Positions 3,224-43,449 of a stretch of 64,000 nucleotides of DNA are shown here, in pieces (the stretch's first letter is position 1; each line of letters starts with the position of its first letter). Both the position numbers and the translations under genes were made by a program. The stretch spans positions 2,438,843-2,502,842 of the forward strand of contig NZ_MQWB01000001.1 of NCBI RefSeq assembly GCF_002257665.1. The letters are read 5' to 3'. The stretch is from Rubricoccus marinus (GTDB lineage Bacteria; Bacteroidota; Rhodothermia; Rhodothermales; Rubricoccaceae). The notes beneath the pieces are model-generated. The model had not been told where the DNA came from. It searched no databases and worked only from the letters and a program-made list of their open reading frames with translations.

Positions 3224-4612
3224 CTAGTTCGGCGGCTCGGCGAGGTCCGGGCTGTACGAGCCGCGGGGAGAGTCCGCCTCTGGCGAGGCGGCGAGGCGCG
3301 GCCGGGGGTCCAAGTCGTCGTGTTCGGGCTCCGCCGCGAGGATGAGGCGCGGCCCGCGGTCGTAGGTGAAGTAGCTGTAGGCCCAGTTGAGCAGAACCGA
3401 GATCTGGTTGCGGAAGCCCGCGAGCTTGACCACGTGGAGCCCCGCCCAGCCCAGCCACGCGAAAAAGCCCTTCATCGTAAAGCCGGACGGGAGTTCCAGG
3501 ATTGCCGCGTTCCGCCCGATCGTCGCCATCATGCCGAGGTCGGTGTACCGGAAGGGCGTCGGTTCCAGACCGCGCAACGCGCGCTCGATCTCGCCAGCGG
3601 CGTGGATGCCTTGCTGGATCGCCACCTGGGCCACCTGAGGGTACAGATCCCCATTGGGATCGCTTGCGCCTGCGGCGTCGCCCACGACGAACACCCCGGG
3701 GTAGCCCGCCACGCGCAGCGAGTCGTCCACGACGGCGCGCCCCCCGCTCACCTGTTCTGTTCCAAGCGTGTCCACGAGCGGGTTGGCCCGCACGCCCGCG
3801 GCCCAGACCACGGTCTTCGCCGGGATCGACTCGCCAGAGGCGAGGTGCGCGGCCTCTGGCGTCACGCGCGAGACCTGCTGGTGGAGGCGCACGTCTACAC
3901 CGCGGCGCTCCAGCGCTCGCTTGGTGTATGCCTGGAGGTTGGGGGCGTAGGCCTGCATAAGCGCGTCGCTCCCATCAAGGAGGATCACGCGGGCCTGCGA
4001 CGTATCGAGCCCGGGGAAGTCCTCGTCCAAGACAGCAAACAGTTCCGTCAGCGCGCCCGCCGTCTCCACTCCCGTCGCCCCGCCGCCGACGACGACGAAC
4101 GTGAGCACGCCAGAGGCGAGCAGCGACGGGTCCCGGTTGGCAGCCTCGAACTGGCGCAACACGTGAGAGCGGAGCGCGATGGCGTCCGGCACGTTTTTGA
4201 GTGGGAAGCCGTACTGCTGCGCGCCCTCTACGCCGTAATACGCCGTGCTGGCGCCCGGTGCGAGGATGAGGTAGTCGTACGGGACCGGGGGCCCCGGCTC
4301 CACCTCCAGCCTCTGGCGCGCGAGATCAACGCCCGTGACGGTCCCGAGGCGGAAGTCGACGTTTTTCTGGTTGTGGTAGAGGTGCCGCGCAGGTTGCGTG
4401 ATGTCGTCCGAGTCCAGCCCGGCCGTGGCGACCTGGTAGAGCAGCGGCTGGAATTTGTGGTAGTTGTTGCGGTCGACGACGAGCACGTCCACGGCCTCGC
4501 GCTTGAGCGCTTTGACGGCCTCCATCCCTCCGTGTCCCGTTCCCACCACGACCACGCGCGGACGAGCTCCATCGGGGTGGCGTTCGAATCCTCGAATCGT
4601 TGGGCCTGGCAT
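3224..4612 (-). CDS. ndh: Type II NADH dehydrogenase (NAD(P)/FAD-dependent oxidoreductase)
   Basis: A single-subunit, non-proton-pumping NADH:quinone oxidoreductase of the cytoplasmic membrane face, 462 aa. The FAD-binding Rossmann motif VVVVGTGHGGMEA is at about 20-32 and the second, NADH-binding motif VVVGGGATGVETAG at about 173-186. The FAD-contact motif VFVVGDAA sits near 307 and is followed by the quinone-site-like PQVAQVAIQQG. The C-terminal hydrophobic or amphipathic region (about 385-425, GFFAWLGWAGLHVVKLAGFRN) is the usual membrane-binding segment. Length and motif order are normal. The last 35 residues are acidic, proline-rich and partly motif-encoded. It is the only gene of the respiratory chain in the window. 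Confidence 0.93.
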   Translation of the reverse strand: MPGPTIRGFERHPDGARPRVVVVGTGHGGMEAVKALKREAVDVLVVDRNNYHKFQPLLYQVATAGLDSDDITQPARHLYHNQKNVDFRLGTVTGVDLARQRLEVEPGPPVPYDYLILAPGASTAYYGVEGAQQYGFPLKNVPDAIALRSHVLRQFEAANRDPSLLASGVLTFVVVGGGATGVETAGALTELFAVLDEDFPGLDTSQARVILLDGSDALMQAYAPNLQAYTKRALERRGVDVRLHQQVSRVTPEAAHLASGESIPAKTVVWAAGVRANPLVDTLGTEQVSGGRAVVDDSLRVAGYPGVFVVGDAAGASDPNGDLYPQVAQVAIQQGIHAAGEIERALRGLEPTPFRYTDLGMMATIGRNAAILELPSGFTMKGFFAWLGWAGLHVVKLAGFRNQISVLLNWAYSYFTYDRGPRLILAAEPEHDDLDPRPRLAASPEADSPRGSYSPDLAEPPN

Positions 4613-4640
4613 CGCTGCTACCTGCTGTGTCGCGCTGCTA

Positions 4641-4658
4641 CGCCAGAGGCCTCTGGCG
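4641..4658. repeat. 18-bp palindrome CGCCAGAGGCCTCTGGCG
   Basis: A type B arrangement (two 10-mers overlapping at their outer ends) in the 214-bp divergent gap between the NADH dehydrogenase start and the small gene at 4827. Apart from this palindrome and a candidate promoter, nothing else is visible in the gap. Confidence 0.9.
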
Positions 4659-4826
4659 AGTTGGGCGTCCGAAGGCGGTTCGCGACGTGTTCACTGCGGG
4701 GCACCCGGGGGAACGCCGGTCCGCGGCATCGGGCAAACCCCGTTCGCGCCTCATTCACGGCCAGACACGCATCTTTATGCCGCACCGCGTCGTTGACTTG
4801 ACATAATGCAGCAATCCACACCTAGC

Positions 4827-4976
4827 ATGACGATCCGCAAGACTTTGGCCGCCGCCTGCGCGGCCGTTCCCGCCTTCCTGACCTTCGCCGTCTACACCGC
4901 TCGCCTGAGCGACTTCCAGCTCGACCTCAGTTCGGACGATCTCGACGGTCAGCTCCTCGCGCGCAACGACGACTAA
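4827..4976 (+). CDS. Small unknown membrane or exported peptide
   Basis: A 49-aa reading frame (56 aa if the in-frame ATG at 4806 is used). It opens MTIRKTL, continues with a hydrophobic alanine-rich segment to about residue 24, and ends in an acidic tail rich in Asp and Leu (LSSDDLDGQLLARNDD). This looks like a signal peptide or single membrane anchor with a short external tail. TTGACA at 4797-4802 could be part of a promoter, in which case the later ATG is the better start. I do not recognise a family. Support is the composition, the clean gap around it and the inverted motif copies after its stop. Confidence 0.45.
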   Translation: MTIRKTLAAACAAVPAFLTFAVYTARLSDFQLDLSSDDLDGQLLARNDD

Positions 4977-4980
4977 GCCC

Positions 4981-5068
4981 GCCTCTGGCGAGCCTGTTGC
5001 GATGACGATTCCCGCCAGAGGCGCCTCGGTGCCTCTGGCGGCGTTGTATCTACGCTACGCCTCTGGCG
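4981..5068. repeat. Cluster of four copies of the 10-mer, alternating orientation
   Basis: Copies at 4981-4990 (GCCTCTGGCG), 5013-5022 (CGCCAGAGGC), 5031-5040 and 5059-5068 (both GCCTCTGGCG) fill the gap between two convergent small genes and run into the 3' end of the minus-strand gene. Several alternative hairpins with 10-bp stems are possible. Confidence 0.8.
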
Positions 5069-5321
5069 GAGAGTCGATCTCGCCCTTGTGCCCGTGGTGG
5101 TCGCCGTGCTCCTTGACGTAGCGCTTGTTGTAGTCGCGCTCGTACTCCTCTTCGATCTCATGCTCGGAGATGTCCTCCGTTTGGGTCTGCACGCGGTCGA
5201 ACGCGGCCACGTTGGTGTCGAGCGGTTCGTCCGGTTGCTCGTCTTCGAGGAAGAGCGACCCCGCTTGAGGTGGATCGTCGGCGGAAACGTCTTCGGGCGG
5301 GGTGTGCTGTTTGTCGGCCAT
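5055..5321 (-). CDS. Small acidic protein of unknown function, His-rich tail
   Basis: An 88-aa reading frame starting MADKQHTPPEDV. It is hydrophilic and strongly acidic, with a probable helix rich in Glu, Asp and Tyr in the second half (EHEIEEEYERDYNKRYVKEH) and a histidine-rich end (GDHHGHKGE) that could bind metal. The reading frame continues further upstream, but the internal ATG at 5321 marks where composition becomes protein-like. There is no signal peptide and I recognise no family. It lies downstream of the glutamine synthetase gene on the same strand, beyond a stem-loop, so it probably has its own promoter. Confidence 0.6.
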   Translation of the reverse strand: MADKQHTPPEDVSADDPPQAGSLFLEDEQPDEPLDTNVAAFDRVQTQTEDISEHEIEEEYERDYNKRYVKEHGDHHGHKGEIDSPPEA

Positions 5322-5412
5322 GAGGAGCGTGAGAGATGAGGGGGCTTCTAACCCCTCCCCCTCGCGGAGGGTCCACACAGTGTCTCTCACCCCAGCGATC
5401 TGAGGTACCACG

Positions 5413-5430
5413 GCCTCTGGCGCCAGAGGC
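5413..5430. repeat. 18-bp palindrome GCCTCTGGCGCCAGAGGC
   Basis: A type A palindrome in the 226-bp gap between glutamine synthetase and the small acidic gene, both on the minus strand. The gap also holds the GC-rich stem-loop at 5486-5519. Confidence 0.9.
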
Positions 5431-5485
5431 ATTGCGGGCGTGCGGGGTCGCTGTCGTCCAGCGCTGGCCCGCGTCCCAAACGCAG

Positions 5486-5519
5486 CGCGCCCCCGCCAGA
5501 GGAGACTAGCGGGGGCGCG
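5486..5519 (-). terminator. GC-rich stem-loop after glutamine synthetase
   Basis: Arms 5486-5496 (CGCGCCCCCGC) and 5509-5519 form an 11-bp perfect stem with a 12-nt loop, about 30 nt past the glutamine synthetase stop on the minus strand. Only a weak T-rich stretch follows, so it may be a terminator or an RNA-stabilising hairpin. The loop contains a one-base variant of the iterated motif. Confidence 0.5.
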
Positions 5520-5547
5520 AGAAGAGAGAGGCGAATAGCCCCCAGCT

Positions 5548-7725
5548 CTACTTGATGAACAGCATCTCGCGATAGGTCGGCATCGGCCACAGGTCGGCCG
5601 GGACCGCCTTCTCGATCTCGTCGCACGAGGTGCGGGCTTTGGCCATCGCAGGGACCACTTTGCTCTCCATCGCGGCGGCCTCGTCCTTGGCCTTGTGTGC
5701 GGCTTCGAGCGCTTTGTCCAAGCCCTTGAGAGCCTTGGTGAGCGCGTTCACTTCGGTCACCACGCGCCCGGCGGTGTCCCGCGTGCCGCTGGCGTCCAGT
5801 CCCATGCCGTCGATGGCGCCAGAGGCCTCGCCGAGTTCGCCGAGGTAGCGGATCGCAGCTGGGAGAACGAGGGTGCGGAGCATCGTGCCGGTCGTGGCGG
5901 CCTCGATGTTGATCGTCGTCGCGTACTGCTCGATCAGGATCTCTTTGCGGGACTCCAGTTCGCGCTCGCTGAGCACCCCGAAGCGCTCGAACACGGCGAC
6001 GTTCTTCTCGTCGGTAAGCGTGCCGAGGGCCTCTGGCGTGGTCTTGAGGTTGAGGAGCCCGCGCTCGGCGGCCTCGTCCTGCCACGCCTGCGCGTAGCCG
6101 TCGCCGTTGAAGACGATGGCCTTGTGCTCGCGGATGGTCTCGGCGATGACCTCCTGGGCGGCGCTCATGAGTGCCTTCTTGGAGGACTTCTTGCCCATCT
6201 TCGCCTCCATCCGGTCCACCATGTCGGAGATGGCCTCAGCCGCGATCGTGTTGAGGACCACGAGTGGGAAGCTCACCGACTGGCTGGAGCCGACGGCGCG
6301 GAACTCGAACTTGTTGCCGGTAAAGGCGAACGGGCTCGTGCGGTTGCGGTCGCCAGCGTGGCGCGGAAGCGTGGGCAGGACCGGCGAGCCCAAGCCGAGA
6401 AGGCCGGAGCTCTTGCTCTCGGTCGCCGTGCCGGCGTCGAGGATCTGCTCGAATACGTCCGTCAGCTGGTCGCCGAGGAAGATCGAGATAATGGCCGGGG
6501 GCGCCTCGTTAGCACCCAGGCGGTGGTCGTTGGCCGCGGTCGCGATGCTCGCGCGCAAGAGGTCCTGGTGCGTGTGGACCGCCTGGATCACCGCGGCACA
6601 GAAGAACAGGAAAAGCGTGTTGGAGTGCGGCGTGTCGCCGGGCTCCAGGAGGTTTAGGCCCGTATCGGTGGACATGGACCAGTTGACGTGCTTGCCGGAC
6701 CCATTGACGCCTGCAAATGGCTTCTCATGGAGCAGGCAGGCGAGGCCGAAGCGCGGCGCCATCCGCTGCAGCGTCATCATCATGAGCTGCTGGTGGTCGG
6801 CGGCGATGTTCGCGTTCTCGAAGATGGGCGCGAACTCGTACTGACCGGGTGCCACCTCGTTGTGCCGCGTGGAGACGGGCACGCCGAGGCGGTATAGCTC
6901 GGTCTCGACGGCGTTCATGAACGCCATCACGCGCTCGGGGATGGAGCCGAAGTAGTGGTCGTCCATCTCCTGACCGCGCGGTGGCGCAGCGCCGATCAGG
7001 GTCCGACCGGCCGTGACGAGGTCCGGGCGGTCCAGGTAGAAGCTTTCATCTACGAGGAAGAACTCCTGCTCGCTTCCACACGTCGCGTAGACGCGGCCCA
7101 CCTTCTCGTCGAAGAGGTCGAGCGCGCGGCGCGCCTGGGCGTTGAGCGCCTCCATGCTGCGAAGGAGCGGGATCTTGTGGTCCAGCGCCTCGCCCGTCCA
7201 GCTCGCGAAAGCCGTCGGGATGCAGAGCGTGGCCGAGCCATTGTGCTCGACGAGGAATGCCGGGCTCGTGGGGTCGTAGGCCGTGTAGCCACGGGCCTCG
7301 AACGTGGCTCGGAGGCCGCCGCCCGGGAACGAGGACGCGTCGGGCTCGCCCTGGACGAGGGCCTTGCCCGAGAACTCGGCAACGGCGCCACCGCCAGCGT
7401 TGGGCGTGATAAACGAGTCGTGCTTTTCGGCCGTGCGGCCGGTCAGCGGCTGGAACCAGTGCGTGTAGTGCGTCGCGCCGCGCTCCACGGCCCACTCCTT
7501 CATCGCGAGCGCGACGGCGTCCGCCACGGTCTCGTCAAAGGGCTCGCCCTTCTCGATGGTCGCCATGAGGCGCTTGTAGACCGCCTTGGGAAGGCGGGAC
7601 TTCATCTCGGCGAGGCCGAACGTGTTGGAGCCGAAAATGGCCTCGACGTCCCCAGACGACGAGTGGCCGTTGACGAACGTCGACCCTTGCGGGTGGGAGC
7701 GGGAGCGGGACAAGGTGGCAGGCAT
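5548..7725 (-). CDS. glnN: Glutamine synthetase type III
   Basis: Makes glutamine from glutamate, ammonia and ATP in the cytoplasm. At 725 aa it has the size of the large GSIII class (about 700-730 aa), not the 450-aa GSI. The N-terminal GSIII signature [17 protein letters not shown] is near residue 31, the HWFQPLTG motif near 91 and a glutamate-site-like [14 protein letters not shown] near 284. The catalytic core with [10 protein letters not shown] and the nucleotide region [14 protein letters not shown] follow. GSIII is characteristic of Bacteroidota and cyanobacteria. The adjacent Lrp/AsnC regulator on the same strand suggests amino-acid-responsive control. Over 2.2 kb it contains only two copies of the iterated 10-mer. 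Confidence 0.96.
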
Positions 7726-7763
7726 GGGAGAAGGAAGATGCCGGGGTGTGAGAAATCAGGAGT

Positions 7764-27620: not shown

Positions 27621-28331
27621 ATGACGCCCGACTCCCTCCCCCCCTTCCCCGGCTTCCGCGACGAGGCCTTCGCGTTTCTCCGCGACCTCCGCGCCCACAA
27701 CGAGCGGGACTGGTTCAAGCCGCGCAAGGCCACCTACGACGACGAGCTGCTGTGGCCGGCGCGCTGCCTCGTCGGCGAACTCGCGGAGGCGATGCCGCGT
27801 GCCGGGCTCCCACTCACGGGCGACCCGAAAAAGGCCCCGTTCCGCATCTATCGTGACACGCGCTTTTCCAAGAACAAAGCGCCCTACAAAACGCACCTCG
27901 GCCTCGTCCTCTCCCGCGACGGCAAGAAGAAAAGCCCCGGCTCGCTCTATGTCCACGTCGAGCCCGAGCACTGCTTCCTGGCGGCGGGCTTCTGGGCGAT
28001 GGAGTCCCCACTGCTGCGCCGCTGGCGCGAGCGGATCGCTGGGGCGCCAGAGGCCTGGCTCGCGGTGGTGGAGGAACTGGAAGGCAGCGGGCTCACGCTC
28101 GGGACCGGCCCCGCGGGCACGCTCAAGCGGATGCCGCGCGGTTTCGAGGGCTTCGCGGACGCCGCCATCGCGCCGTACCTCAAGTGGAAGGGGACCGTCG
28201 CCACGCGCGAGGTGGCGCCAGAGGCCACGCAGTCGCCCGGCTTCGCTGGCGACGTGGTCGCCTTCGCGCAGGACGCGATGCCGCTCCTGGCCTGGGGCTG
28301 GAACGTGGCGGACGCGGCCCCCGGCGCCTGA
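27621..28331 (+). CDS. DUF2461 family protein
   Basis: A 236-aa cytoplasmic protein of the widespread DUF2461 (TIGR02453) family. Characteristic stretches are FLRDLRAHNERDWFKPRKATY near the N-terminus, FRIYRDTRFSKNKAPYKTHLG near 75-95, and the HVEPEHCFLAAGFW motif near 117-130. The fold has no assigned biochemical function. The gene has its own promoter box and converges on umuD with a 27-bp gap carrying two direct copies of GCCTCTGGCG-like sequence. Confidence 0.88.
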   Translation: MTPDSLPPFPGFRDEAFAFLRDLRAHNERDWFKPRKATYDDELLWPARCLVGELAEAMPRAGLPLTGDPKKAPFRIYRDTRFSKNKAPYKTHLGLVLSRDGKKKSPGSLYVHVEPEHCFLAAGFWAMESPLLRRWRERIAGAPEAWLAVVEELEGSGLTLGTGPAGTLKRMPRGFEGFADAAIAPYLKWKGTVATREVAPEATQSPGFAGDVVAFAQDAMPLLAWGWNVADAAPGA

Positions 28332-32392: not shown

Positions 32393-33046
32393 TCAGGCGA
32401 CCGACGCCGTGAAGTAGTCCGCGCCGCCAGGCTGCGCGTGCAGCGCGAGCACGCCCGCGTGCGCGAGTTGGACGAGCGTCTTGGACGCTTTCCAGGGCGG
32501 CACGCCCGCGAGCCGCGCGTAGCCCTCCACGGTGACGCGCTCGTGGCGGTCCAGGTAGGCCAGCAGCTTCCGCTCGCGCTCGCCAAAGGTGAACCGCGCG
32601 CCGGTCCCCTTGCGCTGCTCCTTCATGAGCAGCACGGCCTCCCGCGAGGCCTCGACGGACTGGTCCTCCACGCGCACGAACACCTTGCGCTTCTGGCGCG
32701 GGTCCGCGTCCGGCCGGAGGTAATGGGGCCGGTCCATCGATGGCGGCACGTCCACGACGAGCGCCAGCCGGCGGCGGCTCACCCGCACGGGCTCGACCTC
32801 GATCTCGACCTCGGGCTCGACCCGCCCGCCGAGTGCTTCGCGCAGCGCGAACAGTTCCTCGTCCGCGTCCTTTACGCCCACGACCGAGCCGTCGTCGTCC
32901 ACGCCGATGAGGACCTTGCCGCCGTCGGTGTTGGCGAGCGCGATGATCTCGCGCGCGAGGCGGTCCGGGCGCGGCACGCGGTTCTTGAACTCCAGGTAGC
33001 GGCCCTCCCCCATCGCGGCGAGGCGGCGGAGATCATCGAGGGTCAT
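32393..33046 (-). CDS. AlbA_2 (Schlafen-like) DNA-binding domain protein
   Basis: A 217-aa protein with an N-terminal AlbA_2 fold. The motif YLEFKNRVPRPDRLAREIIALANTDGGKVLIGVDDDGSVVG (split, about 17-57) is typical, and the fold extends to about 140 with an Arg/Lys-rich segment (DPRQKRKVFVRVED). The C-terminal 60 residues (FGERERKLLAYLDRHERVTVEGYARLAGVPPWKASKTL, split) form a winged-helix-like domain. Such proteins bind nucleic acid and are often annotated as ATP-binding or regulators. It lies downstream of gpsA on the same strand, separated by about 150 bp. Confidence 0.8.
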   Translation of the reverse strand: MTLDDLRRLAAMGEGRYLEFKNRVPRPDRLAREIIALANTDGGKVLIGVDDDGSVVGVKDADEELFALREALGGRVEPEVEIEVEPVRVSRRRLALVVDVPPSMDRPHYLRPDADPRQKRKVFVRVEDQSVEASREAVLLMKEQRKGTGARFTFGERERKLLAYLDRHERVTVEGYARLAGVPPWKASKTLVQLAHAGVLALHAQPGGADYFTASVA

Positions 33047-33200: not shown

Positions 33201-34241
33201 TCAGGCGAAGGCGGAGCCGTCGAGGTGCGCGGCCTCGTGCTTGGGATCGCGCGTCATCAGCGAGCAGACCTCGTCGTACGGCGCGCTCTCGCCGTCGATG
33301 ACGCGCGCGACGGCCTCGGTGATGGGCATCTCGATGCCGTAGCGGGAGGCGAGTTCGCGGACGGACGCGGTGGTCTTCATGCCCTCGACGACCATCGTCA
33401 TCGCGTCGGCGGCTTCCTCCAGCGACTTCCCGCCGCCAATCATCTCGCCGAAGCCGCGGTTGCGGCTGTGCTTCGAGAAGCACGTCACCACCAGGTCCCC
33501 GAGCCCCGCGAGGCCCGCGAACGTGTGCGCCGCGGCGCCCATCGCGAGGCCGAGGCTCGTGATCTCGGCCAGCCCGCGCGTCACGAGCGCGGCCTTGGCG
33601 TTGTCGCCCAGCCCCATCCCGTCGCCCATGCCGGCGGCGAGCGCCATCACGTTCTTGACCGAGCCCGCGATTTCGACGCCGACCAGGTCCGTGTTGGTGT
33701 AGACGCGCAGCGAGGGCGTCATGAACAGCGCCTGCACCTGCTCCGCGATGGCGAGGTCCGGGATGCTCACCACCACGCTCGTCGGCTGCCCCAGAGCGAC
33801 CTCCTCGGCGTGGCTCGGCCCGTAGAGCACGCCCACGCGGGCCTCTGGCGCCAGAGGCAGCGCCTCGCGGAGCACGCCGCTCGTCGTCAGCAGCGTCCCG
33901 TTCTCGATCCCCTTGGCGACCGAGACGATGGCCTCGGGCTCGGTCGCCCGGTCCGCGAGTTGCGTGGCAACGCTGCGGAGCGACTGGCTGGGTACGGCGA
34001 ACAGCCACACGCTTGCGCCAGAGGCGGCTTCGTGGAGGTCCGACGTGACGCGGAGGCTTGCCGGAAGCTCGGCGTTGGGGAGGTAGGCGGCGTTGCGGCG
34101 CGTGGCCGCGATCTCGCGCGCGGCGTCTTCGCGGCGGGCCCAGAGGGTGACCGGGTGGCCGGCTTTCGCGAGGCTGTAGGCGAGGGCCGTGCCCCAGCTT
34201 CCAGCGCCGAAGACGGCGGTATGGGCGGTTTCGATGTCCAT
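33201..34241 (-). CDS. gpsA: Glycerol-3-phosphate dehydrogenase [NAD(P)+]
   Basis: Reduces dihydroxyacetone phosphate to sn-glycerol 3-phosphate for phospholipid synthesis; cytoplasmic, 346 aa. The NAD(P) motif VFGAGSWGTALA is at about 9-20. The GPSHAEEV motif, the catalytic lysine in SVKNVMALAAGMGDG and the substrate-binding arginine in FSKHSRNRGFG are present. A full 18-bp palindrome (33841-33858) lies inside the gene and encodes PLAPEA in the loop just before GVLYGPSHAEEV. A TACCTTCG box sits only three bases upstream of the ATG, so the mRNA may be leaderless. Confidence 0.96.
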   Translation of the reverse strand: MDIETAHTAVFGAGSWGTALAYSLAKAGHPVTLWARREDAAREIAATRRNAAYLPNAELPASLRVTSDLHEAASGASVWLFAVPSQSLRSVATQLADRATEPEAIVSVAKGIENGTLLTTSGVLREALPLAPEARVGVLYGPSHAEEVALGQPTSVVVSIPDLAIAEQVQALFMTPSLRVYTNTDLVGVEIAGSVKNVMALAAGMGDGMGLGDNAKAALVTRGLAEITSLGLAMGAAAHTFAGLAGLGDLVVTCFSKHSRNRGFGEMIGGGKSLEEAADAMTMVVEGMKTTASVRELASRYGIEMPITEAVARVIDGESAPYDEVCSLMTRDPKHEAAHLDGSAFA

Positions 34242-34344: not shown

Positions 34345-35358
34345 CTACGCTGCGTCCGCCTTGACCACGCGGCCGATCTCGAAGGCGGGCTCGCCGAGCG
34401 CGCCCAGAACCGTCTTCGCGCGGGCCTTTTTGGCCGCCGGCACGATGGCGACGAGCCCCACGCCGAGGTTGAACGTGCGCCGCATGTCCTCCTCCGGCAC
34501 CTCGCCCACTTCCTGGATCAGGCGGAACAGGCCCGGCCGTTTCCACGCGCTGTAGTCCACCGCGATGTCCAGCCCATCCGGAAGCACCCGGCGCGTGTTG
34601 CCCTCAATGCCGCCGCCGGTCACGTGCGAGAAGCCCGTCGCGAGGTCCTCCGCGATCAGCGCCTGGATGCTGTCGAGGTAGGAGCGGTGGACGCGGAGAA
34701 GCGCCTCCCCGACGGACGCGCCGCCGAGCGCCTCTGGCGTGTCCGCGGCCACGTAGCGGTCGAAGAGGACCTTCCGCGCGAGGCTGTAGCCGTTGGTGTG
34801 CAGGCCGGAAGAGGGCACGCCGAGAAGCACGTCGCCCTCCTCGATGTCGCGGCCGTCCACGATGGAATCCCGCTCCACGATGCCGATCACGCAGCCTGCG
34901 AGGTCGTAGTCGCCCGTTTTGTAGAGGTCCGGCATCTCGGCGGTCTCGCCGCCGATCAGCGCGCAGCCGTTGGCTTTGCACGCCTTCGCGAAGCCCAGCA
35001 CGACGGCCTCGAACACGTCGGGGCGCAGGCTGCCCGTGGCGAAGTAGTCCAGGAAGAACAGCGGGCGCGCGCCGCTTACGGCGATGTCGTTGACGCAGTG
35101 GTTGACGAGGTCCTCGCCGATCGTGTCGTGCTTGCCGACGCGCGTGGCCACCTTGAGCTTGGTCCCCACGCCGTCGATGCTGCTCACCAGCACGGGATCG
35201 CGCATGGCGCCAGAGGCCGCGAGGTGGAACAGCCCACCAAAGCTGCCGATCTCGGTCAGCACGCCGGGCGTGAACGTCTCCCGTACGGGGCCTTTGATGC
35301 GGCGCACGGCCTCTTCGCCTGCGTCAATGTCGACTCCTGCTTCCTTGTACGTCGCCAT
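34345..35358 (-). CDS. purM: Phosphoribosylformylglycinamidine cyclo-ligase
   Basis: AIR synthetase, the fifth step of purine synthesis; 337 aa, normal length. Seen are the N-terminal YKEAGVDIDAGEEAV, the glycine-rich SSIDGVGTKLKVA (nucleotide-binding side), the HCVNDIAVSGARPLFFLDY motif, the GGETAEMPDLY motif and the GGGIEGNTRRVLP motif. No other purine gene is adjacent, although purU and apt are within 20 kb. The C-terminal half has few motif copies; one encodes ASGA at about 47. Confidence 0.97.
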   Translation of the reverse strand: MATYKEAGVDIDAGEEAVRRIKGPVRETFTPGVLTEIGSFGGLFHLAASGAMRDPVLVSSIDGVGTKLKVATRVGKHDTIGEDLVNHCVNDIAVSGARPLFFLDYFATGSLRPDVFEAVVLGFAKACKANGCALIGGETAEMPDLYKTGDYDLAGCVIGIVERDSIVDGRDIEEGDVLLGVPSSGLHTNGYSLARKVLFDRYVAADTPEALGGASVGEALLRVHRSYLDSIQALIAEDLATGFSHVTGGGIEGNTRRVLPDGLDIAVDYSAWKRPGLFRLIQEVGEVPEEDMRRTFNLGVGLVAIVPAAKKARAKTVLGALGEPAFEIGRVVKADAA

Positions 35359-35535: not shown

Positions 35536-36321
35536 TTATCCCTCTGCCTCCGCCTTCCATGGCGGCGCGGTCTTGCCCAGGAACGCCGCGACGCCCGCCT
35601 TGCAGTCGTCGGTGCTGCGGGCGAGCGCGTTGAGGCGCGTGGCGTAGCTCACGCCCTCGGCCCAGCCCATGCCGTGCACGTCCGCGAGGAGCCGCTTGGT
35701 GAGTGCCACCGCCGTCCCGCTCGTCTCCGCCGCGAGCGAGCGGCACAGCGCGTCGGTCTCGGCGTCGAGGTCCTCTGGCGCGACCGCGCGCGTGATCAGG
35801 CCACAGGCCTCGGCCTCTTGCGCCGTGATGAGGCGGCCGGTGAGCATGAGATCGCGCAGGGCGGCGTCGCCGAGCTTGCGGCGCGCGATGACGGCCACGA
35901 TGGCGGGCACGAAGCCGATGCGGACCTCGGTGAACCCCAGCTTGGAGCCAGAGGCCACGAGCGAGAAGTCGCACGCGGCGGCGAGCCCGCAGCCGCCCGC
36001 GATGGCGTGGCCGCCCACCTTGGCCACGATGGGCTTCGGGTGCTGCACGATGGCGTCGAACAAACCCGCGAGGTGCTCGGAGTCGGCGAGGTTGGCCTCG
36101 GCGCTGGCGGTCTGAAGGCCCTGAAGCGCGGCGAGATCGGCACCGGCAGAGAACGCCGAGCCGCTCCCGGTCAGCACGATCACGCGGACGGACGCGTCGC
36201 CAGAGGCCTCGTCCAGCCTCTGGCGGAGCGCGGCCACGAGGTCGGCGTTGAGCGCGTTGCGGACCTCGGGGCGGTCCATCGTGAGGGTGAGGACGGACCC
36301 TTCAGAAACAGCGGTGAGCAT
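35536..36321 (-). CDS. Enoyl-CoA hydratase/isomerase family protein
   Basis: A crotonase-fold enzyme of 261 aa acting on an acyl-CoA. The oxyanion-hole motif SAFSAGADLAAL is near 55-66 and KVGGHAIAGGCGLAAACDFSL near 100-120. The glutamate of TEVRIGFVPAIV sits at the position used by methylglutaconyl-CoA and enoyl-CoA hydratases, and a second acidic residue is plausible. Methylglutaconyl-CoA hydratase of leucine breakdown is one candidate, but no other leucine-degradation gene is nearby. The last residues (KTAPPWKAEAEG) are typical of the family. Confidence 0.9.
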   Translation of the reverse strand: MLTAVSEGSVLTLTMDRPEVRNALNADLVAALRQRLDEASGDASVRVIVLTGSGSAFSAGADLAALQGLQTASAEANLADSEHLAGLFDAIVQHPKPIVAKVGGHAIAGGCGLAAACDFSLVASGSKLGFTEVRIGFVPAIVAVIARRKLGDAALRDLMLTGRLITAQEAEACGLITRAVAPEDLDAETDALCRSLAAETSGTAVALTKRLLADVHGMGWAEGVSYATRLNALARSTDDCKAGVAAFLGKTAPPWKAEAEG

Positions 36322-36570: not shown

Positions 36571-37038
36571 ATGTTCAACAAGATCTCCCTCCTCGCACTC
36601 GCGTTTGTCCTGCCGCTCGCGGCTTGCGCCGACGACGACACCGTCGAAACCACGACCGTCGACGATGTCGCGGTTGTTGATCCGGTAACCCCGGCTGACG
36701 ACATGATGACTGACGACACCACGATGGAGTCCGACGTCACCGCACAGGCGACGCTCGACGCCGTCCCGGCTGAAGGCCTCACCGCCATGGCGCCCGGCGC
36801 AGCCGTCGCCAACATCGATTCGTGGATCGCGAAGCTGAGCGACGTTCCCGAGGCCTCTGGCGTCGTCGAAGGTCTCCAGACGCTGAAGACGCAGCTCACG
36901 ACCGACCCGCTCGACGGTGCCGCCATCGGCGCAACGCTGAGCTCGCTCGGTGAGCAGACGACTGCAGCAGCCGGCGGCGACGCCGCGCTCGAGCAGCTCG
37001 GCGCCGCGCTCTCCTCGGCTGGCAGCAGCCTCATGTAA
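36571..37038 (+). CDS. Small acidic lipoprotein of unknown function
   Basis: A 155-aa protein with lipoprotein signal LALAFVLPLAACADDD (Cys19). An Asp/Thr-rich acidic linker (about 20-55, MMTDDTTMESD) is followed by a helical region of about 95 residues rich in Ala, Leu and Gly without Cys. No family recognised. It uses ATG with a 249-bp upstream gap in which no clear promoter was found. It is followed by one of the best intrinsic terminators in the window, suggesting a strongly expressed single-gene unit. Base composition is slightly less GC-rich than its neighbours, and it has a single copy of the motif. Confidence 0.72.
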   Translation: MFNKISLLALAFVLPLAACADDDTVETTTVDDVAVVDPVTPADDMMTDDTTMESDVTAQATLDAVPAEGLTAMAPGAAVANIDSWIAKLSDVPEASGVVEGLQTLKTQLTTDPLDGAAIGATLSSLGEQTTAAAGGDAALEQLGAALSSAGSSLM

Positions 37039-37159: not shown

Positions 37160-37918
37160 CTATCCCTCCATTCCCGCCAGAGGCGCCTCGGCCAGAAACC
37201 GGTACAGCGGCCACAGCGCCGCCTGCTCCTCGATGGCGCGCGCGACGAGGCGCGGCCCCAGCGCGTCCATCTCCTCGCGTCCGATCCGGCGCATGATCCA
37301 GATGCCCTTGGCGCGCTCCAGGCCGTCCGGCAACGCCGCCAGAGGCTCGGAGAACTCGGGGCGGCCTTCGGGCTTGGTAACGTGAGGCGCGAACGAGAAG
37401 CGGTAGCCGCGTTCGATGAGCCCGTTGAGGATCGCGAGCGCATCGGACGGCTCGTCCATCAGCCTCTGGCGGGCCGGACCGAACAGGCCGCGCGCGTAGT
37501 CGCCGATGTAGAGCCCCCAGCGGAAGGCGTCGGGGTGGACGGCGTGGCTGAGTTGGATGTCCGTCAGCCTCTTGCGCGGCAGGCGGTAGAAGCTCATCCA
37601 GAGGTGGCTGTGCGAGCCGCCGGCGCCGAAGTCGTTTTTGAGGATGCGCGAGAAGACGTTTTTCTCGGTCTCGAACGGGATGCCGTTGGGGATCACCCAG
37701 TTGAGCGCGAGGTCGTCGCGGTAGAGCTTGAACGGCTCGGTAATGGCGCGCTTGATGACCTCCTTCTCCTCGCGGTAGCGTCCGATGTGCGGCTCGGCAC
37801 GCAAGCGCTCCAGCGCCTCCAGGCCCTCGGCGGGGAAGCCATCGAAGCGGAGCGCCAGAGGCTCGGGCGTGACAAACGGCGGGGCGGCGTCGGGGACGGG
37901 GGGCAGATCGGGCGGCAT
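37160..37918 (-). CDS. Conserved-looking protein of unknown function
   Basis: A 252-aa cytoplasmic protein from ATG 37918; the frame could start 12 codons earlier. I do not recognise the family with confidence. Distinctive stretches look conserved rather than random: FKLYRDDLALNWVIPNG, ETEKNVFSRILKNDFGAGG, SHSHLWMSFYRLPRKRLTD, HAVHPDAFRWGLYIGDYARG and RAKGIWIMRRIGREEMD. The His/Trp/Tyr-rich centre suggests a compact domain like those found at the N-termini of some restriction-type ATPases, but that is a guess. It is divergent from an HsdR_N-type nuclease gene with a 97-bp gap. Confidence 0.72.
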   Translation of the reverse strand: MPPDLPPVPDAAPPFVTPEPLALRFDGFPAEGLEALERLRAEPHIGRYREEKEVIKRAITEPFKLYRDDLALNWVIPNGIPFETEKNVFSRILKNDFGAGGSHSHLWMSFYRLPRKRLTDIQLSHAVHPDAFRWGLYIGDYARGLFGPARQRLMDEPSDALAILNGLIERGYRFSFAPHVTKPEGRPEFSEPLAALPDGLERAKGIWIMRRIGREEMDALGPRLVARAIEEQAALWPLYRFLAEAPLAGMEG

Positions 37919-38015
37919 GCGGTGCGTACCAGTGTCCCCGTGACGGGTTCTCACGCCAAAGGCCTCTGGCGCGTTGGAGCCGGCGTGCGATCTTGCTCAG
38001 TCTTTCTCTTGCCTT

Positions 38016-39131
38016 ATGTCCAACCTCCGCGACCGCATTGAGACCGCCCGCGAGCGGCTCGCTACGAACAGCTTCGATAACGAGGCCGCGATCCGCTCCG
38101 GCGTCGTTGATCCCATCCTAAACGCGCTTGGATGGGACCTCTACAACCCGTCAATAAACAAGCCCGAGTACCGCGTCGGTGCGCGGCGCGTTGACCTCGC
38201 CTTGTTCGTAGGAGAGCGGCCGGCGGTTTTTGTCGAAGTCAAGCAGCCCGGCAAGGCTGCGGGCGCCGACCGCCAGCTGTTCGAGTACGCGTTCATGGAG
38301 GGCGTGCCTCTGGCGGTGCTGACGGATGGCGCGACGTGGAGCGTGCACGTCCCCGCCGAGCAGGGCTCAATGGAGGAGCGCCGAGCATTCTTCCTCGACC
38401 TCGCGGAGCGGTCGCTGACGGAAGGCGCCGACAAGCTCACGCGCTACCTCGCGCGCGACGCCGTGGCCTCTGGCGAGGCGTTCGACCGCGCACGCCGCGA
38501 CTGCCAGCGCGCCCGCCAGAGGCGTGGGGCGCTAGCGGCGATCCCGCAGGCGTGGGCCAATCTCGTCAAGAGCGAGGACGCTACGATCTTGGAGCGTCTG
38601 GCGGCAGAGGTGGAGAGCGTGAGCGGCTTCCAGTCCGAGCCCGCCGACCTCGTGGCGTTTCTCGCCACGCTCGCGCCCGCCTCTGGCGCGCTGCCGAAGG
38701 GCAAGAAGTCGAAGCCTCGAACGCCCAGGCGACAGAAGCCGGCGCCTCTCGCGCCAGAGGCAACGCCACCTGCTGCGCTGAATGCGAGCGCGCTCCCCGC
38801 CAGAGGCTTCGAACTCGACGGACGGTTCGTGGCCTGCAAAACGGGAGCGGACGTATTGGCGGGGGTTCTGCGCGCCTTTTCTGAGCGAGACCCGTCGTTC
38901 CTAGAGCGGTTCGATGTGGCAACCCGAACCAAGAAGCGGAGGCTTCTCGCCCCGACGCCAGAGGCGCTCTATCCCGGCAAGCCGGAGTTCCACCGCCAAG
39001 TGCGCGAGGTCACAGACGGGTGGCTCGTGGCGACGCACAGCTCGTCGGCAGCCAAGCAGGCGACGATTGCGAAAGCCGTCGCTCTGATGCCCCGCGTGGC
39101 GTCAGAACTCAAGGTCCGGTTCCAGAAGTAG
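38016..39131 (+). CDS. Lone HsdR_N-type (PD-(D/E)xK) nuclease-like protein
   Basis: A 371-aa protein. The N-terminal 100 residues match the nuclease domain found in type I restriction R subunits: E23 in FDNEAAIR, D60 in RRVDLALF, and E74-x-K76 in VEVKQPGK form the PD-(D/E)xK set. There is no helicase domain and no hsdM or hsdS gene nearby. A Lys/Arg-rich linker (about 225-260) leads to a second domain of about 110 residues (GFELDGRFVACKTGADVLAGVLRAF, split) of a kind sometimes associated with restriction or DNA-end-processing proteins. Solitary members of this family are common and uncharacterised. Confidence 0.8.
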   Translation: MSNLRDRIETARERLATNSFDNEAAIRSGVVDPILNALGWDLYNPSINKPEYRVGARRVDLALFVGERPAVFVEVKQPGKAAGADRQLFEYAFMEGVPLAVLTDGATWSVHVPAEQGSMEERRAFFLDLAERSLTEGADKLTRYLARDAVASGEAFDRARRDCQRARQRRGALAAIPQAWANLVKSEDATILERLAAEVESVSGFQSEPADLVAFLATLAPASGALPKGKKSKPRTPRRQKPAPLAPEATPPAALNASALPARGFELDGRFVACKTGADVLAGVLRAFSERDPSFLERFDVATRTKKRRLLAPTPEALYPGKPEFHRQVREVTDGWLVATHSSSAAKQATIAKAVALMPRVASELKVRFQK

Positions 39132-39137
39132 CTCCCG

Positions 39138-39155
39138 CCTCTGGCGCCAGAGGCT
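39138..39155. terminator. Type A palindrome after the HsdR_N-type gene
   Basis: GCCTCTGGCGCCAGAGGC, seven bases beyond the stop codon, in a convergent gap that also holds a long imperfect inverted repeat. Confidence 0.45.
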
Positions 39156-39340: not shown

Positions 39341-39985
39341 TCAGGCCGCGACCCGCGTGTAGCGCACGTCGCGGACGAAGACCTCGCCGCCGGCACTGTC
39401 CGGGCCGTAGATGTCGAGCGTGAGCTCGTCGCCGCTGCACTCGAAGGCGGTCCGGCCGCGCTCCCACTCCTCGAAGACGCTCTCGGTCGCGAACGGGTTG
39501 GGCTCAGCCGCGCCGCCGTTGACGCTCACCGACGAGGTCAGCTCGGCCTCGCCCGGCGTCATCACGATCCGGTCGTCCTCGACGGCGTAGGTCGCGCGCG
39601 CGGTCCCACTGTAGTCGTTGCGGACGCTCACCGTCTGGCCCATCACGGCCGCGTTGATCGTGACGGAGAAGTTCTCGAACCGCTGCACGGCGTCGCCAGA
39701 GGCCTCGAAGACGAGCAGCGCGCGCCCGCTGCTGCCGCCGACGGAGAACTGCGCGTCCGGGATCTGCTGCATCGCGGGGACCTTGCCTACGTCCATCGAC
39801 GCCGGGTCGATCTGCCACGTGCCGACAAGGCAGCCGGCGCCGCTGGCGTTGGAGAGAGCCGCGGCCTCTGACGCGGAGGTGGCGTCGCCAGAGGCGGAAT
39901 CGTCAGAGGGGGCGGCGTCCGCGGGCGCGTCGGAGGCGCAGCCGCTGGCGAGGAGGAGGACGGCGGAGAGCAGGAGGGTGCGCAT
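39341..39985 (-). CDS. Lipoprotein of unknown function
   Basis: A 214-aa protein with a lipoprotein signal (MRTLLLSAVLLLASGCAS, Cys16) and a low-complexity Ser/Asp/Ala linker to about residue 50. The mature domain begins GCLVGTWQIDPASM, typical of lipocalin-like small lipoproteins that open with a GTW motif. It contains alternating beta strands ending RDVRYTRV. A second Cys near 190 (FECSGDEL) may pair with C51. No close family assigned. It sits upstream of polA on the opposite side of a 52-bp gap, same strand. Confidence 0.72.
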   Translation of the reverse strand: MRTLLLSAVLLLASGCASDAPADAAPSDDSASGDATSASEAAALSNASGAGCLVGTWQIDPASMDVGKVPAMQQIPDAQFSVGGSSGRALLVFEASGDAVQRFENFSVTINAAVMGQTVSVRNDYSGTARATYAVEDDRIVMTPGEAELTSSVSVNGGAAEPNPFATESVFEEWERGRTAFECSGDELTLDIYGPDSAGGEVFVRDVRYTRVAA

Positions 39986-40037: not shown

Positions 40038-43000
40038 TCAGTGCGCGTCCAGCCAGTTGTCGGCCACGCCCACGTCTACCACGACCGGCACGTCGAGCGG
40101 GAAGGCGGCGGTCATCTCGCGCCGGATCAACTCCGTCGCGGCGTCCACCTCCGCCAGAGGCACCTCGAAGACGAGCTCGTCGTGGACCTGGAGGATCATG
40201 CGCGTCTCCAACCCCGCAAGAGGCAGCGCGTTGTGCAGCGAGACCATCGCGCGCTTGATCATGTCCGCCTGCGTGCCCTGGATGGGCATGTTGAGCGCGA
40301 TGCGCTCCGAGTAGGCCCGGTCGTTAGGGTTGCGGGAGTTGAGCTGCGGGAGGTAGCGGCGGCGGCCGAGCAGCGTCTCCGCGTAGCCTCTGGCGCGGGC
40401 GTCGTCCACGAGCCCGTCCAGGAACCGGATCACGGTCGGGTAGCTGGCGCGGTACTGGTCGATGAGCTCCTGCGCCTCGGAGTTGGAGATCCGCATCCGG
40501 TTGGCGAGCCCGAAGGCGCTGATGCCGTACGGGATGCCGTAGTTGACCTGCTTGACCCGGTCGCGCTGCGGGCGCGTGACGTCCTCGTAGTCCACGTCGA
40601 ACACGCGGGCGGCGGTCGCGGTGTGGATGTCGCGCCCTTCGCTGAACGCCTCCACGAGCCCCGCGTCCTGGCTCATGTGCGCGATGATGCGGAGCTCGAT
40701 CTGCGCGTAGTCCGCCGCCAACAGCTTGCACCCATCCGCTGCGACGAACGCGCGGCGGATCTCGCGGCCCATCTCGGTCCGGATGGGGATGTTCTGGAGG
40801 TTGGGGTTGGAGGACGAGAGGCGGCCTGTGGCCGTGACCGTCTGGTTAAAGTCGGTGTGGATGCGGCCCGTCTCGGGGTGGATGAGCTCGGGCAGGCGGT
40901 CGGCGTAGGTGCTCTTGAGCTTGGACACTTTGCGCCAGTCCAGGATGAGCGCGGGCAGGGTGTGCTCCTGGGCGAGCTCGCTGAGCACGTTCTCGGCCGT
41001 GCTGGGCGCGCCGCTCTTGGTCTTCGCCAGAGGCTGGAGCCCGAGGCCCCACGTCGGCGCCTCTTCGGCGAGTTGCTTTTTGGTCTTGGGCTTCGCATCG
41101 GGGTCGCCCTCAACTTTGCCCGACTCGTTGTCGCGCACGTCTTGCTCCCACTGCGCGGCCGCCGCGCGCTCCTCGTCCGTGGGCGGGTCGTTGAACAGGA
41201 TCTCGCCGATCTGCTTGGGCGAGCCGATGTTGAAGACGCGGCCCGCGAGCTCGCCGACCTCCTTCTCGATCCGCTCCATCTCGGCTTCGAGTTGGACGCT
41301 GATCTTGTCCAGGACCTTTACGTCCACCTTGACGCCGCGCCGCTCGATGTCGGCCAAGACCGGCACGAGGGGAAACTCGATCTCCTCCGCGATGGCGAGG
41401 AGCTTATCGTCGATGAGCTTCTGGCGCAGGAGCGGGACGAGGCGGAGCGTGATGTCGGCGTCCTCGCAGGCGTAGGGGCCCACGTCCTCCACCGGCACGT
41501 CGCGCATGTTGAGCGCGTTCTTGCCCGTGCCGATCAGGTCCGTGATGGGCTGCGGGCGGTAGTTGAGGTAGAAGCTAGAGACGTCGTCCAGCTTGTGGCT
41601 GGCCTCGGGCTCGATGAGGTAGTGCGCCACCATCGTGTCGAAAAACGGCCCGGCCACCTCGACGCCGTGGTTGCCCAGGACGAGCAGGTCGTACTTCACG
41701 TTGTGGCCGACCTTCTCGACGCCGGGGTCCTCCAGCCTCTGGCGAATCGCGTCCAGGGCCTCTTGCGTCTGCGTCCCGTCAGGCAGCGGCGTGGGGACGT
41801 AGACGGCGCGTTTTTCCTTGGACGAAAGCGACACGCCGACAAGCGAGGCCTCCATCGCGTCCACGCTCGTGGTCTCGGTGTCGAACGCCAGAGGCTCGCC
41901 CGCGGCCTCCTCAGCGGCGGTGCCGAGGTCGGCCTTCTCGTAGACCGTCGCGTAGCTCACGGCGTCGGAGTCCATCGCGGTGACGGGCTCGTAGGGGCCG
42001 AAGTCGAAGTCCAGCGACGGGTCGCTCTCGGGCAGGTGCGTGCTCTGCCTCTTGCGGTAGCCGCCAGAGGCGCGGGTGCGCTCGCGGCCCTCGGCGTAGT
42101 CCTTGACGCGGTTGCGCAGCCGCGTGCCGAAGCCGACGTGGTCGAAGAGGTTGTTCAGCGCGCCGATGTCGGGGTCGGTGCGGCGGAGCGAGTGCCAGTC
42201 CAACGGGTCGCCGAAGTCGTCGGTGACGTCGAGGTCGGTGGCGATAGTGACGAGCTTTTTGCTGAGCAGCGCGTCCTCGGCGTGGTTGGTGAGGCCGTCG
42301 TTGGCGCGCTTGCCCTTGACCTCGTCGCGGTGCTCGATGAGGTTCTCGACGGTCTTGTACTGCTTGATGAGCTTGATGGCGGTCTTCTCGCCGATCCCGG
42401 GCACGCCGGGCACGTTGTCCGCGCTGTCGCCCATGAGCGCGAGGAGCTCGATGAACTGCACGGGCTCCAGGCCGTCGTACTTCTCGCGGAAGGTCTCGGC
42501 GGTCTCGCGGTTGAACACCTCGCCCATGTACGGCGGGCGCAGCATGTGCACGCAGCCGGGGCCGGCGCCAGAGGCCTCGTCGGAGAGGAGCTGGCGGAAG
42601 TCCTTGTCGGCGGAGAAGATGACGACGTCCACGCCCTCGCCCTCGGCGCGGCGGCAGAGCGTGCCGATCACGTCGTCGGCTTCCATCCCGTCCACTTCCA
42701 GAACGGGGATGTCGAAGCCGCGGCAGAGGTCCTTGATAAGCGGGATGCAGGACTTGATCTCGCTCGGCATCGGCGGCCGGTGCGCTTTGTAGTCCTCGTA
42801 GAGCTCGTCGCGGAAGTTGGGCCCGCCCGTGAGCGGGTCGAACACGACGGCGATGTGCTCGGGCTGGTGGTCCTCCAGCAGCTTGAGCAGCGCCGTCGCG
42901 AAGCCGTAGAGCGTGCGCGTATCGGTCCCGTCGGGCGCGTTCATGGACGCGTTCTTCATGCTGAAGAAGGCGCGGTAGGCCAGCGCCATCGCGTCGGCGA

Positions 43001-43256
43001 GGAACAGCGTCTCGCGCTCCTCCCCTTCCTCGTCGTCTTCGCCAGAGGCCTCTGGCGCGTCGTCAGGTGCGTCGGCGTCGGGCTCGTCCCAGGGCGGCGT
43101 GTCGTCGCTGGAGGGCGCCTCTGGCGCGGGCTCCGCTGTGGCGGAGGCGCTTGGCGCGCTGAACAGGTCGGGCGCGCCGGCTGGCGCGGTGTCGCCAGAG
43201 GCCTCTGGCGTGGCGGGCGGCTCGGGGAGGTCGTCGAAGAGCGAGGGCTCGGGCAT
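40038..43256 (-). CDS. polA: DNA polymerase I
   Basis: A 1072-aa DNA polymerase with 5' nuclease, proofreading and polymerase domains. After an unusual acidic N-terminal extension of about 95 residues comes the 5'-3' exonuclease (FLADAMALAYRAFF; MEADDVIGTL; FSADKDFRQLL). The 3'-5' exonuclease looks active (FDTETTS; GHNVKYD; YACEDAD). The polymerase has SSSNPNLQNIPIRTEMG, the ADYAQIELR metal site, the O-helix RDRVKQVNYGIPYG and VHDELVFEV. A 45-residue charged insertion precedes KTKSGAPSTAENVL in the thumb. The start at 43256 gives MPEPSLFDDL. The extension and insertion are rich in PEASG, APEA and similar, encoded by clustered copies of the 10-mer. Confidence 0.97.
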   Translation of the reverse strand: MPEPSLFDDLPEPPATPEASGDTAPAGAPDLFSAPSASATAEPAPEAPSSDDTPPWDEPDADAPDDAPEASGEDDEEGEERETLFLADAMALAYRAFFSMKNASMNAPDGTDTRTLYGFATALLKLLEDHQPEHIAVVFDPLTGGPNFRDELYEDYKAHRPPMPSEIKSCIPLIKDLCRGFDIPVLEVDGMEADDVIGTLCRRAEGEGVDVVIFSADKDFRQLLSDEASGAGPGCVHMLRPPYMGEVFNRETAETFREKYDGLEPVQFIELLALMGDSADNVPGVPGIGEKTAIKLIKQYKTVENLIEHRDEVKGKRANDGLTNHAEDALLSKKLVTIATDLDVTDDFGDPLDWHSLRRTDPDIGALNNLFDHVGFGTRLRNRVKDYAEGRERTRASGGYRKRQSTHLPESDPSLDFDFGPYEPVTAMDSDAVSYATVYEKADLGTAAEEAAGEPLAFDTETTSVDAMEASLVGVSLSSKEKRAVYVPTPLPDGTQTQEALDAIRQRLEDPGVEKVGHNVKYDLLVLGNHGVEVAGPFFDTMVAHYLIEPEASHKLDDVSSFYLNYRPQPITDLIGTGKNALNMRDVPVEDVGPYACEDADITLRLVPLLRQKLIDDKLLAIAEEIEFPLVPVLADIERRGVKVDVKVLDKISVQLEAEMERIEKEVGELAGRVFNIGSPKQIGEILFNDPPTDEERAAAAQWEQDVRDNESGKVEGDPDAKPKTKKQLAEEAPTWGLGLQPLAKTKSGAPSTAENVLSELAQEHTLPALILDWRKVSKLKSTYADRLPELIHPETGRIHTDFNQTVTATGRLSSSNPNLQNIPIRTEMGREIRRAFVAADGCKLLAADYAQIELRIIAHMSQDAGLVEAFSEGRDIHTATAARVFDVDYEDVTRPQRDRVKQVNYGIPYGISAFGLANRMRISNSEAQELIDQYRASYPTVIRFLDGLVDDARARGYAETLLGRRRYLPQLNSRNPNDRAYSERIALNMPIQGTQADMIKRAMVSLHNALPLAGLETRMILQVHDELVFEVPLAEVDAATELIRREMTAAFPLDVPVVVDVGVADNWLDAH

Positions 43257-43449
43257 CGAAAGCGGTCGGCGGAGTCTGGGGCGCATGGTAACGCGCACGA
43301 GCGACAGCGGTTTGGCGCAGCGGGAAGGATGTGGGGCCCCCTGGCGCCAGCGGCCGAAGACCGCACGAAAGCAGGGTGGCGCGCGAGAGGCCTGGGATCT
43401 TGTCCCGCGTTCCTTCATCCCCTATCTCTCCATCCCGCCTCCCTCCCGC

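Follow-up and report, generated by a model that had tools for sequence, protein, structure and literature searches.

Two genes stand back to back in the genome of Rubricoccus marinus (4.43 Mb in 15 contigs), within the 64-kb stretch of DNA considered in the current analysis and referred to here as the window. One of them encodes a protein without an obvious family (the left gene) and the other a lone nuclease (the right gene). Their arrangement raises the question whether they work together, as had been proposed in an earlier note on this DNA, and the further question how such a nuclease could be tolerated when no modification enzyme accompanies it.

Organisation of the locus

Both divergent open reading frames are present as had been described. 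The features of the locus are as follows.

33201-34241, minus strand: gpsA (NAD_Gly3P_dh families)
34345-35358, minus strand: purM, named by reading of the sequence
35536-36321, minus strand: enoyl-CoA hydratase gene (ECH_1, E-value 3e-52), the conserved neighbour of the left gene
37160-37918, minus strand: left gene, 252 residues from the ATG, DUF2461/DUF1054 (YktB)-like
37919-38015, no strand: intergenic gap between the divergent genes, 97 bp with ATG starts
38016-39131, plus strand: right gene, 371 residues, with an HSDR_N-type PD-(D/E)XK domain, a linker and a SeqA-like C-terminal domain
38016-38519, plus strand: PD-(D/E)XK domain, approximately residues 1-168, with E23, D60, E74 and K76
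38799-39131, plus strand: SeqA-like C-terminal DNA-binding domain, approximately residues 262-371, predicted from profile and model
39341-39985, minus strand: lipoprotein-like gene, named by reading, which adjoins polA in the sibling genome too (L165)
40038-43418, minus strand: polA (DNA_pol_A, E-value 1e-149), which forms with 39341-39985 a separate syntenic block

The start of the left gene is placed at the ATG at 37918, which agrees with the protein starts of the closest relatives in the alignment; an earlier GTG would move it to 37954. With this start on the minus strand and the ATG at 38016 on the plus strand, the divergent spacing of 97 bp given previously holds. The suggestion that the gap serves as a shared promoter region finds no backing: a search for sigma-70-like sites between 36900 and 39500, with a pattern perhaps ill-suited to this lineage, found none, and the junction is absent from the relatives examined.

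Association of the two genes

The neighbourhood of the left gene has been compared in 29 of the 40 other genomes that encode it, the 11 others being lower-scoring and without a locus, in flanks of about 1.5 kb, some of which are ended by contig ends. L009, in which the gene is intact with a TAG just upstream of the start, is part of this count and lies outside the left-gene alignment (A1); L065 is in A1 and outside the 29 loci. L096 was kept out of alignment A4 (the stretch had stops at the contig edge), and L103 and L107 were not used.

The nuclease occurs in these flanks in none of the 29 relatives. The gene conserved beside the left gene is that of enoyl-CoA hydratase, which lies downstream in the same orientation in 23 of these relatives, at a distance of 18 to 319 bp in 21 and of 719 and 1316 bp in two, and which was not seen in 6. 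In R. marinus the small plus-strand gene at 36571-37038 is placed between the hydratase gene and the left gene. Both purM and gpsA then follow in the same five of eight longer relative loci, and not in L068 (the sibling), L065 and L072. A gene with a Schlafen AlbA_2 domain (32393-33046, E-value 5e-22) lies further along in the window and stays beside gpsA and purM in L063, L066, L070 and L073.

Of the 195 class genomes compared, 41 encode the left gene, 25 the nuclease or a weaker relative of it, and eight both (Fisher p 0.19). When the nuclease is confined to its full-length relatives (8 genomes, sorted by alignment coverage), both genes are found in two of the 195 (p 0.68). A lack of co-occurrence in relatives had been named in the earlier note as part of what would refute the proposed functional pair, which is left unsupported.

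The sibling genome carries the parts of the locus on three contigs: C241 bears the left gene and the hydratase gene, C202 the nuclease, and C83 both polA and the lipoprotein-like gene, a block that is followed there by a different gene. In G005 some 207 kb separate the left gene from a weaker relative of the nuclease, and an Hsp20 gene stands divergent from the left gene in G006. In G005, G006 and G008 polA was found without the lipoprotein-like gene at its side. Among the genomes examined, the junction is thus particular to that of R. marinus.

As judged from these genome comparisons, conserved pairing is lacking, and the two genes are most likely unrelated and chance neighbours. A joint function of the two divergent genes, as a module for defence or DNA processing, could be argued from the distance of 97 bp between them, and also from an occurrence, described below, of a domain like the left protein in an McrB-like ATPase beside McrC on Leptolyngbya plasmids. 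The absence of adjacency in the 29 relatives, the hydratase gene as the conserved neighbour, the three separate contigs of the sibling, and a co-occurrence no better than chance speak against such a module, which is largely refuted by the absent conserved pairing and which we consider extremely improbable. Divergent neighbours in a single genome are weak evidence of a module, and in the present case the relatives separate the genes at once.

Family and fold of the left gene product

The left protein had been described as a member of no recognised family, and direct scans agree with this: nothing is matched in Pfam, NCBIfam or PADLOC, and PHROGs gives a single hit (E-value 0.44). The strongly conserved blocks noticed in it are borne out by the alignment, where R103, L105, K106, N107, D108, F109, G110, G112 and G113 are invariant in all the 30 sequences. 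Sequence searches of the PDB with the protein and its alignment gave nothing useful.

The predicted structure of the left protein (pLDDT 84.8) has the fold of the DUF1054/YktB proteins, as indicated by matches to 2a8e (Z 17.0 over 198 residues at 2.9 A, with an identity of just 12%) and to 3mqz (Z 14.0). Its profile also resembles that of DUF2461 proteins (hhalign probability 92.8, E-value 4e-7). Taken as single sequences, three of 30 match DUF2461 in Pfam (best E-value 0.0081), and the protein of R. marinus itself matches neither the DUF2461 nor the DUF1054 family. A resemblance to the DNA-binding domain of McrB (Z 4.3-4.9) was not used, since this level is common by chance. A true DUF2461 gene, separate from the left gene, is encoded at 27663-28295 of the same window, and a gene of this family is found in 38 of the 40 genomes searched, R. 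marinus included.

A left-gene-like domain lies at residues 383-600 (E-value 9.8e-26 when this protein alone is searched) of an McrB-like ATPase of 869 residues encoded on plasmids of Leptolyngbya boryana. In this locus (L067) the fused domain precedes the AAA part of the ATPase (3804-6413), which is directly followed by McrC (6479-7762; McrBC, E-value 1.9e-41). The plasmid collection gave no McrB fusions beyond the four Leptolyngbya records. The presence of the domain in an McrB-like ATPase makes a link of the left gene to restriction not absurd, and it hints at nucleic-acid binding by the stand-alone left protein.

All the genomes in which the left gene was found, 41 in the class and 19 of 394 in the phylum, belong to the same order. 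Relatives were found neither in phages nor in viral contigs, the latter scanned with two peptide patterns. The left gene is most likely an old housekeeping gene of this order and a companion of the enoyl-CoA hydratase gene, and its linkage points to metabolism.

Catalytic core of the nuclease

HSDR_N (PF04313) is the only Pfam family past the cut-off in the nuclease (36.2 against 25.1 bits, E-value 7.1e-9), and a phage family named endonuclease is matched as well (E-value 2.8e-10). The catalytic set of HSDR_N, E ... D ... E-x-K, is present. E23, D60, E74 and K76 are in the positions reported for them earlier and are invariant in the eight full-length sequences aligned, the R. marinus protein included; in a wider alignment of 17 sequences D60, E74 and K76 are invariant and E23 is kept in at least 90%.

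The AlphaFold2 model of the nuclease has a mean pLDDT of 82.2 and a pTM of 0.53, a value at which the relative placing of the two domains is not fixed by the model. Residues 2-167 match BpuSI (Z 12.7, 149 residues) and the HsdR structure 3h1t (Z 11.6, 121 residues), and DrdV is matched as well (Z 10.9-11.2). The matches to type IIG systems in PADLOC (best E-value 6e-4) were not taken as an identity, as they probably reflect just the shared nuclease fold.

The nuclease therefore has the fold and the E, D, E-x-K set of the N-terminal domain of HsdR, and it differs from HsdR in what surrounds this domain. The absence of a helicase, remarked upon previously, is seen in its length of 371 residues and in its Pfam hits, which include no helicase family up to an E-value of 1. 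Of the nearby ORFs that were recognised or scanned, none was identified as a gene for a helicase, a methylase or a specificity subunit, in line with the earlier description. Type I restriction enzymes are defined by the helicase domains of HsdR and by the HsdM and HsdS partners, and the nuclease does not qualify as one of them.

The cutting activity is a prediction, and the context of the gene in its own genome is unremarkable, which would fit a remnant or a gene for a DNA-binding protein without cutting activity. Such a reading is at odds with catalytic residues that are invariant in eight of eight proteins and with a frame that is open throughout and shares an identity of 58-59% over the full length with the sibling copy; it is judged to be very improbable.

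SeqA-like C-terminal domain

The PD-(D/E)XK domain is followed by a helical and disordered linker and by a C-terminal region that resembles SeqA. A profile of eight nuclease sequences finds five SeqA entries of the PDB (E-values 1.9e-4 to 0.017), with 3fmt at 1.9e-4. The SeqA family (PF03925) is matched by four members of the wider 17-sequence alignment (A3) when scanned singly (best E-value 1.5e-6), and is not matched by the R. marinus nuclease alone among Pfam hits up to an E-value of 10. Residues 266-369 of the model match SeqA-DNA complexes, 1lrr (Z 10.8, 102 residues, 2.5 A) and also 1iu3 and 3fmt, and 3sk7 is matched by the same region. Profile, single relatives and model agree on a SeqA-like tail, the profile and the model being not fully independent since both rest on the same eight-row alignment. 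The sequence and model comparisons show two folds in the nuclease rather than one, a predicted PD-(D/E)XK core and a SeqA-like tail.

When 54 nuclease loci (48 distinct places) were compared with the model of the tail, nine strong matches were obtained, which are the eight sequences that built the model and a stretch of L045 at a contig end; there are four weak matches (E-values 2.6e-4 to 8.7e-3). Most lone HSDR_N relatives in this set are therefore without a clear SeqA-like tail.

SeqA-type domains are known for reading hemimethylated GATC. The contacts of SeqA with GATC are made through R116, T117, R118, N150 and N152, as given in PMC6225831, and these positions are occupied in the nuclease by K306, K307, R308, H341 and S343. 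Arginine or lysine is found at the position of R118 in all the eight full-length proteins and at that of R116 in seven, with histidine in one. N150 is kept in four of the eight and is replaced by histidine in the R. marinus nuclease, and the position of N152 has serine in all eight. The tail thus shares with the C-terminal domain of SeqA (PF03925; 1lrr, 3fmt) the fold and the basic character at R116, T117 and R118, but differs from it in the residues at N150 and N152 and in being fused to a nuclease. As a whole the GATC-contact set is not conserved, with its basic part kept and its asparagine pair changed. Binding of DNA by the predicted tail is probable. Hemimethylated GATC is an unlikely target and was discounted on account of the changes at N150 and N152.

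Distribution and genomic context of the nuclease

A nuclease related to the right gene is patchily distributed in the class, with full-length relatives in 8 of the 195 genomes, the counts that include weaker relatives being given above. The plasmid and phage collections contain partial matches alone, in three plasmids and four Porphyromonas phages, which cover at most 40% of the query. In R. marinus the third-position G+C of the nuclease gene is 0.81, against 0.91-0.94 for seven other genes measured; the small gene at 36571-37038 is similarly low (0.82).

No mobile or defence gene is recognised beside the nuclease in R. marinus or in the sibling (G004), where it again stands alone and adjoins a sortilin-like (Vps10) gene. 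The relatives in G084 and G100 are surrounded by ORFs of low third-position G+C, mostly 0.2-0.3, and in G100 a phage integrase lies about 3.5 kb away. An integrative element in a viral contig (L169, 1-11101) contains a full-length relative, which carries a SeqA-like tail (E-value 2.3e-28 when this protein alone is searched). The gene is flanked on one side by integrase, RepB primase and AAA genes, and an IrrE-type regulator is encoded on the opposite side. In G105 an AAA_21 ATPase is encoded no more than about 1.3 kb from the relative, which has a DUF6338 protein as its neighbour in the other direction. The weaker relative in G005 adjoins an HsdM_N fragment and a SIR2_2-like protein (SIR2_2 below the cut-off). 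Since ORFs in DNA so rich in G+C are frequently called on the wrong strand, these neighbours have been sampled rather than fully surveyed. The loci sampled show a mobile context for some of the relatives, in integrase-bearing or defence islands.

Methylases have been searched for through the families PF02086 (Dam-type) and N6_Mtase. Of the eight genomes that encode a full-length relative, PF02086 was found in three, G038, G069 and G105, and not in the five others, R. marinus (G000), G004, G043, G084 and G100; the genome of R. marinus has one N6_Mtase match (E-value 1.4e-7). A second, short lone HSDR_N_2 protein of about 141 residues is also encoded in R. marinus (L001, G000 C1:3738925-3739203).

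These data bear on a role in the affairs of the host. The nuclease might serve in repair or be linked to replication, recognising host DNA that is hemimethylated or special in some other way, in the manner of MutH or SeqA. This would account for the SeqA-like domain and for the solitary gene of the sibling with its Vps10 neighbour. The patchy distribution, the five of eight genomes with no PF02086 methylase and the mobile surroundings of some other relatives speak against it, and this role appears improbable.

Possible mode of action of the nuclease

The earlier interpretation of the locus is supported in part. The functional pair is not supported, and the nuclease keeps some support as a restriction-like gene on account of its PD-(D/E)XK core, its SeqA-like tail and the presence of some relatives in islands.

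We tentatively prefer a reading in which two unrelated genes have been brought together at a junction that R. marinus alone has among the genomes examined, the left gene being a housekeeping gene and the nuclease a self-contained, restriction-like enzyme, most likely of type IV-like character. The SeqA-like C-terminal domain would grip DNA, and the HsdR-type PD-(D/E)XK domain would cut the DNA so gripped with no need of a helicase or a methylase. The DNA acted upon would most likely be foreign and bear a mark that the host lacks; host DNA being without the mark, the host would survive its own nuclease. The gene would spread as the single-gene cargo of mobile islands and would have become the neighbour of the left gene at the present junction. 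We infer the cutting of DNA, its targeting by modification and the role in defence alike. The nuclease is possibly modification-dependent and type IV-like, and cutting of this kind is a possible answer to the puzzle of self-cutting with no methylase.

The modification-dependent enzyme DpnI joins a DNA-reading part to PD-(D/E)XK cutting and has no methylase. The same arrangement, which is also that of the nuclease, is found in McrBC according to PMC11090510. The nuclease differs from both in its reader domain and has no GTPase. Among lone HSDR_N endonucleases, COG2810 carries the name "predicted type IV restriction endonuclease", and it resembles the present nuclease, by its description, in having a stand-alone HSDR_N domain. 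A strong SeqA-like tail is confined to nine of the 54 loci of lone HSDR_N endonucleases scanned, which sets the R. marinus nuclease apart from most of them. COG2810 is called a restriction endonuclease in PMC5649159.

The self-cutting puzzle could also be answered by a type II-like sequence-specific enzyme whose methylase is encoded elsewhere in the genome, or by an enzyme that borrows HsdM and HsdS in trans. HsdR-like domains are known to cut also in type IIG and similar enzymes, to which belong the matches to BpuSI and DrdV given above, and HsdR_N-HsdM fusions exist, as stated in PMC8432527. The N6_Mtase match in the R. marinus genome and the HsdM_N fragment beside the weaker relative in G005 are consistent with this explanation. 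Against it, no methylase is recognised beside the gene in R. marinus, nor among the one to four ORFs scanned per locus in G004, G043, G084, G100 and G105, and loss of a methylase would expose a resident target to cutting. We regard it as unlikely, though it is the foremost of the alternatives to a self-contained, restriction-like nuclease.

A bolder form of the preferred, modification-dependent reading is possible, though on balance doubtful. The proteins with HSDR_N and SeqA domains may represent a family, so far undescribed, of restriction enzymes that consist of one protein and depend on modification. Their SeqA-type domain would have been recruited and re-tuned (N152 to S) to read a mark of a different kind on invading DNA. 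The fold of the left protein, DUF2461/YktB-like, may for its part be a previously unlisted reader module of McrB, which would suggest that the stand-alone left protein also binds nucleic acid. No description of the combination of HSDR_N and SeqA was found in the literature searched, a scope outside which most subscription papers fall. The words DUF2461 and SeqA are absent from the main text of the census of McrBC systems (PMC11090510), and TIGR02453 and SeqA are absent from the paper on EVE domains (PMC7641849). If this proposal is true, SeqA-type domains would be a further kind of reader of DNA marks in restriction, for which one gene of some 1.1 kb would suffice. The occurrence of a DUF2461/YktB-like domain in McrB also offers a clue to what a widespread family of unknown function may do biochemically.

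An iterated word in the window

The window is rich in the word GCCTCTGGCG, of which 261 copies occur in the 64 kb against 0.65 expected, both inside and between genes. Overlapping inverted copies are found at 32 places, and examples of the word are seen at 38306-38315, 38466-38475 and 39137-39154. A link between the nuclease and GCCTCTGGCG was considered and dropped because the sibling, which keeps the nuclease, has the longer word GCCTCTGGCGCC just 10 times. In the whole genome of R. marinus GCCTCTGGCGCC has 1834 + 1881 copies, and the reversed control word has 5. Seven others of the family have 0-17 copies of GCCTCTGGCGCC, and the sibling with its 10 copies is of the same genus as R. marinus. 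The longer word looks like an iterated word of the HIP1 type that has spread in one species only; a link between HIP1 and methyltransferases is given in PMC4390886.
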